Of a stretch of 64,000 bases of DNA, positions 16,634 through 41,086 are shown one piece after another (positions within the stretch are counted from its first letter, which is position 1; each line of letters opens with the position of its first letter). This stretch comes from Actinomyces slackii (lineage in GTDB: Bacteria > Actinomycetota > Actinomycetes > Actinomycetales > Actinomycetaceae): positions 2,480,001-2,544,000 of the forward strand of contig NZ_LR134363.1 of assembly GCF_900637295.1 (NCBI RefSeq). Reading direction: 5' to 3'. The notes beneath the pieces are model-generated. The model worked only from the letters and a program-made list of their open reading frames with translations, made no database searches and had not been told where the DNA came from. Both the position numbers and the translations under genes were made by a program.

Positions 16634-17036
16634 GCGCACGAGCCGACCTGTACGCCGGGTTCTGTTACCGCCCGCCGTTACCGGCCTGGGCGGCGGCGAC
16701 CATTCATCTTGGGCCACCGTTGCCGATGGCCTCGAGCGACCTACCCGCCGGCTCGGGCGAGCAGCCCTCGGGCGCCGGCTGTGCGGTCTTGCTCCGGGCG
16801 GGGTTTACCGAGCCGCGACGGTCACCCGCCGCGCTGGTGGGCTCTTACCCCACCCTTTCACCCTTACCGGCCATGGGCCGGCGGTCTTCTCTCTGTGGCA
16901 CTGTCCCGCGGGTCACCCCGGGTGGCTGTTAGCCACCGCCCTGCTCTGTGGAGCCCGGACGTTCCTCAGCCCGGCGCCCGGCCCCGAAGGGGCCTGGCAT
17001 ACCGGTACCGCGGCCGCCCGGTCGGCTCGTCCGCGG
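16634..17036 (-). ncRNA. rnpB: RNase P RNA, bacterial class A
   Basis: Catalytic RNA that matures tRNA 5' ends. The minus strand carries the conserved GAGGAACGTCCGGGCTCC block (at 16950-16967), the universal ACAGAA-type element near the 3' end (ACAGAACCCGGC at 16656-16667), and complementary ends ACGAGCCGAC/GTCGGCTCGT that form helix P1. The length of about 400 nt is normal for a high-GC class A RNA. End coordinates are accurate to a few bases only. Confidence 0.95.
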
Positions 17037-25696: not shown

Positions 25697-25788
25697 GCCC
25701 CCATAGCTCAGCGGTTAGAGCAGCGAGCTTATACCTCGTTTCGTGCCTGATAAGCACAAGGTCCTGGGTTCGAATCCCAGTGGGGGCA
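25697..25788 (+). tRNA. Unusual tRNA-Ile with two anticodon-like arms (TAT and GAT)
   Basis: Acceptor GCCCCCA/TGGGGGC, D-arm GCTC/GAGC, T-arm CTGGG-TTCGAAT-CCCAG and discriminator A are all regular. A first anticodon arm GCGAG-CTTATAC-CTCGT has anticodon TAT (25730-25732). The usual 5-base variable loop is replaced by 24 bases that include a second arm GTGC-CTGATAA-GCAC with anticodon GAT (25749-25751), followed by the AAGGTC normally found after the anticodon arm of tRNA-Ile(GAT). Both anticodons are for isoleucine. CCA is not encoded. It may be a functional tRNA with a long variable arm, or a chimera of two isoleucine tRNAs. Confidence 0.7.
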
Positions 25789-25817
25789 CCGGTACCCCGG
25801 TGGATGCCGGGCTCCGA

Positions 25818-25899
25818 GCCTCCGTGGTGGAATCGGTAGACACCGCGACCTTAAAAGTCGCTGCCTACGGGCGTGCGGGTTCGAGTCCCGCCGGAGGCA
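25818..25899 (+). tRNA. tRNA-Leu (TAA)
   Basis: Acceptor GCCTCCG/CGGAGGC, anticodon arm GCGAC-CTTAAAA-GTCGC with anticodon TAA, a long variable arm typical of leucine tRNAs, and T-loop TTCGAGT. CCA is not encoded. It lies 29 bp after the isoleucine tRNA and marks the left edge of the accessory zone. Confidence 0.95.
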
Positions 25900-39576: not shown

Positions 39577-39825
39577 ATGAGCTCGCCCGACCCAGAGATC
39601 CTGGAGACGATCACCCAGATCGTGGCAGAGGAGGCCGGCCAAGAGCCCTCCCGGATCACCACCGAGAGCCGCTTCGCCCAGGACCTGGACATCGACTCCC
39701 TGGGGCTGCTGACGATCGCCACCCAGGTCGAGGAGCGCTTCGGGGTGACGCTGGACGACTCCCTCATCCCCACCCTGCCCACTGTGGGCGCACTGGTCGA
39801 TCTCGTTGCCGCCCAGCGGTCCTGA
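39577..39825 (+). CDS. acpP: Acyl carrier protein
   Basis: An 82-residue acyl carrier protein that holds growing fatty acids on a phosphopantetheine arm. The attachment serine is residue 41 in DLDIDSLGLL. Helix I (ILETITQIVAEEAG) and the acidic helix II region are typical. The AGGAAGGAG ribosome-binding site lies 5 bases before ATG 39577. It is followed after 4 bases by fabF, and the PucR-type regulator precedes it. Confidence 0.95.
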   Translation: MSSPDPEILETITQIVAEEAGQEPSRITTESRFAQDLDIDSLGLLTIATQVEERFGVTLDDSLIPTLPTVGALVDLVAAQRS

Positions 39826-39829
39826 GCCG

Positions 39830-41086
39830 ATGCCGCCTGCCCACCAGGCCGTCGTCACCGGCCTGGGCACGGTCAACCCCCTGGGCGGCGATGCCGCCTC
39901 CACCTGGCAGGCGCTGCGGGACTCGCGCTGCGCCGTCGGCCGTCTCGACGCCGACTGGGCGCAGGACCACGGCCTGGCGGTGCGCCTGGCCGCGCTCCTG
40001 GCCATCGATCCGGCGCAGACGCTGAGCCCCCGCCAGATGCGCCGTCTGGACAGGTCCTCCCAGTGCGCGGTGCTCGCCGCCCGCCAGGCCTGGGAGCACG
40101 CAGGCTCCCCCGAGGTCAGCGGCGATGAGCTGGCGGTGTCGATCTCCCCGGGCATGGGGCCCGTGCTCTCGGTGATGCAGACCTGGGACGATCTTCGCGG
40201 CAAGGGGCCGCGACGGGTCCTTCCCACCGCCGTCCCCGCTCTTATGCCCAACGCCCCTGCCGCAGGGGTCGGCATCGAGCTGGGAGCGCGCGCCGGCATC
40301 CACGCGCCGGTCTCGGCCTGCGCCTCGGGCGCCGAGGCCATCGCCTACGGCGCCGATCTCATCGCCCTGGGACGAGCCGAGGTGGTGGTGGCCGGCGGCA
40401 CGGACGCGGCCCTGCACCCCATGACCGTGGCCGCCTTCGCAGCCATGCGCGCGCTGTCCACCCGCAACGAGGACCCGTCCACGGCCTCCCGCCCCTTCGC
40501 ACCCGACCGCGATGGATTCGTCCTGGGCGAGGGGGCCGGCGTCCTGGTCCTGGAGTCCGCCGAGCACGCCGCCTCCCGGGGCGCGCGCGTCCTGGCCGTG
40601 CTGGCCGGGGCCGCCGTCACGGCCGACGCCTATGACGTGGCCCGCCCCGAGCCCAGTGGCGCCCAGCAGGAGCGAGCCCTGCGCCTGGCGCTGCAGCGCG
40701 CCGAGGTGCTCCCCCAGCAGGTCGGGCATGTCAACGCCCACGCCACCTCCACCCCGGCGGGCGACGCCGTCGAGGCCGCCGTCCTGGCACGGGCACTGCC
40801 CCGGGCGGCGATCAGCGCCACGAAGTCCTTGACCGGCCACCTCCTGGGCGGTGCGGGCGGCCTGGAGGCGGTTGTCACGGTCCTGGCGCTCCAGGAGCGC
40901 TGGGCGCCCCCGACCCTGCTTCCCGCCGGCCTTGATCCGGAGATCGCCGCACTGGGCATCGATGTGGTCGGCCCCCGCGGACGGGATCTGCCCGGCCTGA
41001 CAGCCGCCGTGTCCACCTCCTTCGGATTCGGCGGCCATAACGCAGCCCTGGTCTTCACCAGCCCGCACGGGTCTGAGCGGGGCTGA
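39830..41086 (+). CDS. fabF: 3-oxoacyl-ACP synthase II
   Basis: Elongating condensing enzyme of type II fatty-acid synthesis. The 418-residue protein has the full Cys-His-His triad: C164 in VSACASGAEA, H304 in VNAHATSTPAGD and H337 in LTGHLLGGAGG. The C-terminal VSTSFGFGGHNAALVF is also standard. ATG 39830 lies 4 bases after the acpP stop, so the genes are coupled. fabD and fabH, often in this cluster in other actinobacteria, are absent here. Confidence 0.95.
   Translation: MPPAHQAVVTGLGTVNPLGGDAASTWQALRDSRCAVGRLDADWAQDHGLAVRLAALLAIDPAQTLSPRQMRRLDRSSQCAVLAARQAWEHAGSPEVSGDELAVSISPGMGPVLSVMQTWDDLRGKGPRRVLPTAVPALMPNAPAAGVGIELGARAGIHAPVSACASGAEAIAYGADLIALGRAEVVVAGGTDAALHPMTVAAFAAMRALSTRNEDPSTASRPFAPDRDGFVLGEGAGVLVLESAEHAASRGARVLAVLAGAAVTADAYDVARPEPSGAQQERALRLALQRAEVLPQQVGHVNAHATSTPAGDAVEAAVLARALPRAAISATKSLTGHLLGGAGGLEAVVTVLALQERWAPPTLLPAGLDPEIAALGIDVVGPRGRDLPGLTAAVSTSFGFGGHNAALVFTSPHGSERG

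Follow-up and report, generated by a model that had tools for sequence, protein, structure and literature searches.

In isoleucine tRNAs, a single anticodon ordinarily has to suit the ribosome as well as the synthetase, and for the AUA codon bacteria meet this difficulty with lysidine, which TilS makes. What, then, is the role of an isoleucine tRNA gene that carries two anticodon arms? We analyzed such a gene in a 64,000-nt stretch (hereafter the window) of the Actinomyces slackii genome, a single contig of 3.22 Mb. An initial annotation, made from the letters of the sequence, had described a 92-base tRNA with two anticodon-type loops, CTTATAC and CTGATAA, and we confirmed this description with ARAGORN, Rfam and a predicted fold (Table 1). 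ARAGORN calls a tRNA-Ile(tat) at 25697-25790, and the Rfam tRNA match spans 25697-25788 with 64 bits (cut-off 29). The minimum-energy fold (-37.5 kcal/mol; z = -2.96 relative to shuffles) comprises an acceptor arm, a D arm, two anticodon-type arms and a T arm. All three agree on a cloverleaf with a 7-bp acceptor stem, a D arm, a 5-bp anticodon arm and a T arm, and the acceptor/T geometry of the fold is 7/5. The adjacent 7-nt loops present UAU (CUUAUAC) and GAU (CUGAUAA), the latter on a stem of 4 bp rather than 5. The tRNA-Ile(GAT) of the same genome has exactly this second loop as its anticodon loop and also shares the AGGTC variable loop. No Rfam intron family matches in the window, so the gene does not class as an intron-containing tRNA; bacteria are not expected to splice tRNAs in the archaeal manner.

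Table 1. Features of the two-arm tRNA-Ile locus (positions in the window)
Feature	Sequence	Position	Strand	Remark	Basis
Whole two-arm tRNA-Ile gene		25697-25788	+	Discriminator A at 25788, then CC, no CCA	ARAGORN, Rfam, fold
Acceptor stem	5' strand GCCCCCA; 3' strand TGGGGGC	25697-25703; 25781-25787	+		Sequence, fold
D arm		25706-25721	+		Sequence, fold
First anticodon arm	GCGAG-CTTATAC-CTCGT	25723-25739	+	Loop 25728-25734; UAU 25730-25732; proposed AUA-decoding arm	
Linker	TTC	25740-25742	+	Sequence and length differ between species	
Second arm	GTGC-CTGATAA-GCAC	25743-25757	+	Loop 25747-25753; GAU 25749-25751; proposed isoleucine identity arm	
One base plus class-I-type variable loop (44-48 = AGGTC)	AAGGTC	25758-25763	+	Between second arm and T stem	
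T arm	CTGGG-TTCGAAT-CCCAG	25764-25780	+		Sequence, fold
tRNA-Leu(UAA)		25818-25899	+	29 nt downstream of the two-arm tRNA	ARAGORN, Rfam

A tRNA-Leu(UAA) gene follows the two-arm gene in many further species as well, and the two are probably co-transcribed. In several species of the A. oris group unrelated sequence takes its place, possibly an integration site. The window also encodes a bacterial class A RNase P RNA (Rfam; 16635-17029, minus strand). At 39807-39889 on the minus strand, a tRNA-Val(gac) called by ARAGORN has no Rfam match and lies inside open frames; it is probably a false positive. Outside the window, a tRNA-Leu(CAA) of the same genome (locus L066, G000:C1:2113720-2113793) has a short class-I-type variable loop, not the usual long arm.

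To follow the gene through related genomes, as the initial annotation had advised, we used a pattern that fixed the first loop and left the second free. The two-arm tRNA was found with both loops unchanged in all 49 Actinomyces species searched, including, in a collection of named genomes, A. oris, A. bovis, A. dentalis and A. urogenitalis. The same pattern search found it in none of 164 genomes from the rest of the family (35 genera), where four short pattern matches were not tRNAs. The first stem is likewise invariant in 49 of 49 species, in contrast to the variable linker and flanking bases. At the closing pair of the second loop, C-G gives way to T-A between species, with both sides altered. 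The retention of both loops together with this compensated change indicates more than chance, and it excludes the sequencing or assembly error, or freely varying gene, that had been named as grounds for refutation. Most Actinomyces copies (L003-L031 and L077-L083) have a G1-U72 pair, compared with G1-C72 in this genome. Across 396 genomes of the order, UAU tRNAs occurred only in Actinomyces and in two genomes with a short-variable-loop form (loop CTTATAA; L514 and L515). These two tRNAs lack a second arm and keep A38, whereas the Actinomyces tRNA has the GAU-loop arm and C38 and does not have their short class-I variable loop.

A check for separate tRNA-Ile(GAT) and tRNA-Ile(CAT) genes, also suggested at the outset, proved decisive. 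The tRNA list of the genome contains tRNA-Ile(GAT) and the initiator and elongator tRNA-Met, and tRNA-Ile(CAT) is absent from it. Of CAU tRNAs whose D stem is GAGC, each Actinomyces species has a single one (the elongator Met), and the other genera of the family usually have two, the second being Ile2-like. The tilS gene scored above the cut-off in 0 of 49 Actinomyces genomes and in 155 of 164 genomes of the other genera. The A. slackii genome gives one weak tilS match, below the cut-off, in a reading frame that we take from its sequence to be GMP-synthase-like (GuaA). Because tilS has no match above the cut-off and tRNA-Ile2(CAU) has none, the UAU arm is the only apparent reader of AUA, and we strongly infer that AUA is decoded by it.

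AUA is rare, with 7 of 645 isoleucine codons in the open reading frames of the window. The residues aligned at 86 Actinomyces AUA positions are I (34%), V (28%), L (12%) and M (11%); an IleRS comparison across 30 genomes was used for codon identity only. Judged by these alignments, the pattern is that of isoleucine with drift rather than of leucine, serine or methionine. Since AUA aligns mainly with isoleucine and valine, the two-arm tRNA most likely carries isoleucine. With its UAU anticodon and with neither tRNA-Ile(CAU) nor a tilS match above the cut-off in the genome, the gene resembles the tRNA-Ile3(UAU) that replaces tRNA-Ile2(CAU) and TilS in Mycoplasma, Bifidobacterium and Neorickettsia (PMC8450103), where UAU likewise stands in for a lysidine-modified CAU and TilS was not found.

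Used as a direct query against phages, the Actinomyces tRNA gave partial matches only, and it was pattern searches that found a family, which we define here as the phage two-arm tRNA-Ile(UAU) family. The same two-arm tRNA is present in at least about 100 phage contigs and in scattered bacteria. The Actinomyces tRNA shares the defining features: UAU in the first arm, GAU at 34-36 of a 7-nt second loop, and a class-I-type variable loop thereafter. Viral contigs contain at least 120 UAU tRNAs with a long variable region, most of them two-arm among the matches listed. A second scan of these contigs that left the anticodon free returned UAU in 21 of 36 well-formed new loci, again among the matches listed, so UAU is the anticodon that mostly accompanies this D arm when the variable region is long. 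The initial annotation had argued that two isoleucine readings in one gene speak against chance, and the phage family upholds that argument.

Some members are annotated simply as tRNA-Ile, for instance in Vibrio phages Achelous and henriette 12B8, Synechococcus phage SynMITS9220M01 and Acinetobacter phage vB_AbaS_qsb1. The bacterial members are scattered over Planctomycetota, Acidobacteriota, Sphingopyxis, Pseudoxanthomonas and others, and the Sphingopyxis copy is identical to one copy on a viral contig. A phage member had no counterpart in the E. coli genomes and plasmids searched. Some phage UAU tRNAs form a second class, in which the variable region is likewise long and the loops, CTAGCAA for instance, do not contain GAU (L240, L306, L308, L320, L330 and L341). 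We also noticed phage tRNA-Lys(TTT) genes that combine a class-I D arm with an extended variable region (L354, L374, L382, L385, L391 and L418). Numerous DPANN archaeal matches (L122, L130, L162 and many others) resemble tRNA-Ile(UAU) genes interrupted after position 37 by a short intron; we excluded them on visual inspection.

The family allows the conservation of the second loop to be assessed. Hairpins were picked in the variable region by pairing alone in 130 distinct long-variable-region UAU tRNAs among the matches listed. Positions 34-36 of the second loop read GAU in 114 of them and GAC in 3. The two triplets together persist after clustering, with 67 and 3 of 82 sequences at 90% identity, and 34 and 2 of 47 at 80%. 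About 11 of the long-variable-region UAU tRNAs lack GAU, and these mostly belong to the second class. In ARAGORN structures, a central GAT occurs in 71 of 96 variable-arm UAU tRNAs and in 4 of 164 other variable-arm tRNAs. In members <85% identical that were selected for GA at 34-35, the four pairs of the second stem are standard in 95.8% of cells and show 57 double-sided changes, whereas slid pairings reach 24-47% and 10-18, respectively.

The two loops are conserved differently. In 117 members the first loop always has U33 and UAU (117 of 117) and nearly always A37 (113 of 117), as decoding requires. In the second loop of the same members, position 33 is A in 82 and T in 26, and position 37 is T in 62 and A in 44. 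These members were chosen by GAT or GAC, so the invariance of G34 and A35 is partly true by selection; the selection-free figure is 117 of 130. A33 and U37 of the second loop would not be tolerable in a decoding loop, yet GAU is kept: the second loop conserves the isoleucine anticodon and not the features for codon reading. Across the family the second arm is followed by 5-6 nt ending in GGTY, like the class-I variable loop of the A. slackii tRNA-Ile(GAT).

We favor, with some reserve, a division of labor in which UAU decodes AUA and GAU acts as an IleRS identity mimic in place of lysidine. The first arm would read AUA on the ribosome. The second, with its 7-nt GAU loop, would imitate the anticodon arm of tRNA-Ile(GAU), and IleRS would thereby accept a tRNA whose UAU, lacking lysidine, might otherwise be charged poorly. 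Isoleucine identity depends strongly on the anticodon, and in E. coli tRNA-Ile2 lysidine 34 is one of the determinants (PMC9976931). The gene is presumably transcribed, and charging through the second arm would be feasible in one of two ways. As a variable arm, the GAU hairpin might reach the anticodon-binding domain of IleRS. Alternatively, the five-arm junction might switch which hairpin is stacked under the D stem, so that the second arm would occupy the anticodon position during charging, with GAU presented when the tRNA is charged and UAU when it decodes. Because a variable loop of class-I type comes after the second arm, either hairpin could stack under the D stem, and such a switch is possible. 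In Actinomyces the two-arm tRNA would have taken over from the tRNA-Ile2(CAU)/TilS pathway, and phages would gain from it a means of decoding AUA that does not depend on the TilS of the host. We are evenly divided on the wider reading, namely a new tRNA architecture with decoding and amino-acid identity on separate anticodon arms, possibly with a stacking switch, that spread among phages and in Actinomyces replaced TilS and lysidine, a modification pathway almost universal elsewhere.

One counterpoint is that bacterial-type IleRS relies strongly on t6A37 as a determinant (PMC9976931), and many second loops carry U37. The Actinomyces IleRS is eukaryote-like, and such enzymes may take UAU tRNAs unaided. 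The GAU hairpin could thus be kept for another reason, such as a modification enzyme, protection against tRNA-cleaving defense enzymes or folding, with IleRS charging the tRNA via the UAU arm and the body. The many second loops without A37 would fit this, as would the class-I UAU tRNAs without a second arm in genomes of the order and elsewhere (PMC8450103), which suggest that UAU alone can serve some IleRS; the two genomes of the order indicate that the arm is not indispensable in principle. Nevertheless, we consider this explanation unlikely, because the part of the loop that is conserved at its core is precisely the anticodon for isoleucine, GAU is tied to UAU tRNAs rather than to variable arms in general, and the GAU loop is absent from the CAU tRNAs of the same phages.

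It is considerably less probable that the second arm, reading AUC and AUU, is the real anticodon arm and the first an inserted hairpin. In its favor stand the class-I-type variable loop after the second arm and one alignment with the tRNA-Ile2(CAU) of a sister genus that puts the insertion before the second arm, although this alignment does not settle which arm was inserted. The resulting tRNA would, however, duplicate tRNA-Ile(GAT) and leave no reader of AUA, and it is the first loop that keeps U33, UAU and a purine at 37, whereas the second often lacks both U33 and purine 37.

Very improbable, and rejected, is that AUA is recoded by a tRNA with a long variable arm that carries leucine or serine. 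A long variable region combined with UAU is known from the nematode nev-tRNA-Ile(UAU), which the accessible part of its description reports to be leucylated in vitro and redundant, with no GAU loop described there (PMC4300185). It is also known from some allo-tRNAs (Mukai et al. 2017, as far as summarized in PMC7609411), and UAU is the commonest anticodon of those with 8/4 geometry (PMC7609411). According to that summary, allo-tRNAs have 8/4 or 9/3 acceptor/T-stem geometry and serine identity, whereas the Actinomyces tRNA is 7/5 with isoleucine-like usage, and AUA aligns with isoleucine and valine, not with leucine or serine. Least probable of all is a spliced precursor (including a group I intron), pseudogene or sequencing or assembly artifact, for which only the unusual length speaks and which we rejected given the same gene in 49 independent genomes, the compensatory changes, the phage relatives, the lack of another AUA reader and the lack of an Rfam intron family in the window.

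The initial annotation had left a choice between a class-II-like tRNA and a chimera of two isoleucine tRNAs, and each holds part of the answer. Class II tRNAs (Leu, Ser and Tyr) likewise have an additional arm between their anticodon arm and T arm. Theirs is a long arm joined closely to the T stem with a free loop sequence, whereas the extra arm of the Actinomyces tRNA carries a conserved anticodon triplet in its loop and is separated from the T stem by 5-6 unpaired nt, as in class I (AGGTC in A. slackii); it is therefore not an ordinary class II tRNA. The chimera is plausible because the body resembles the tRNA-Ile2(CAU) of sister genera and the center resembles the phage two-arm tRNAs. For instance, the acceptor stem is the same as that of the tRNA-Ile2(CAU) of a sister genus (L506), and the center of an A. 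oris copy almost matches that of phage member L323, with the same first arm, second loop and AAGGTC. We infer an exchange between a resident gene and a phage tRNA, which would account for the Ile2-like acceptor stem and the phage-like center, and independent insertion is a possible alternative origin.

An anticodon-like hairpin bound by a synthetase outside a normal anticodon arm also has precedent in mRNA mimics such as the thrS leader (PMC9976931), but those are regulatory mRNA elements, whereas the second arm in Actinomyces lies inside a tRNA. We found no description of a two-arm tRNA-Ile(UAU) in the open-access literature; key papers lie outside it, so the novelty is provisional.

If the proposed division of labor is true, placing the two demands on two arms is a different solution to the AUA problem from the one that relies on lysidine. 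It would make clear how an entire genus can do without TilS, and why phages carry the two-arm tRNA, which would let them decode AUA independently of modification by the host. It would also suggest a design rule for engineered tRNAs.
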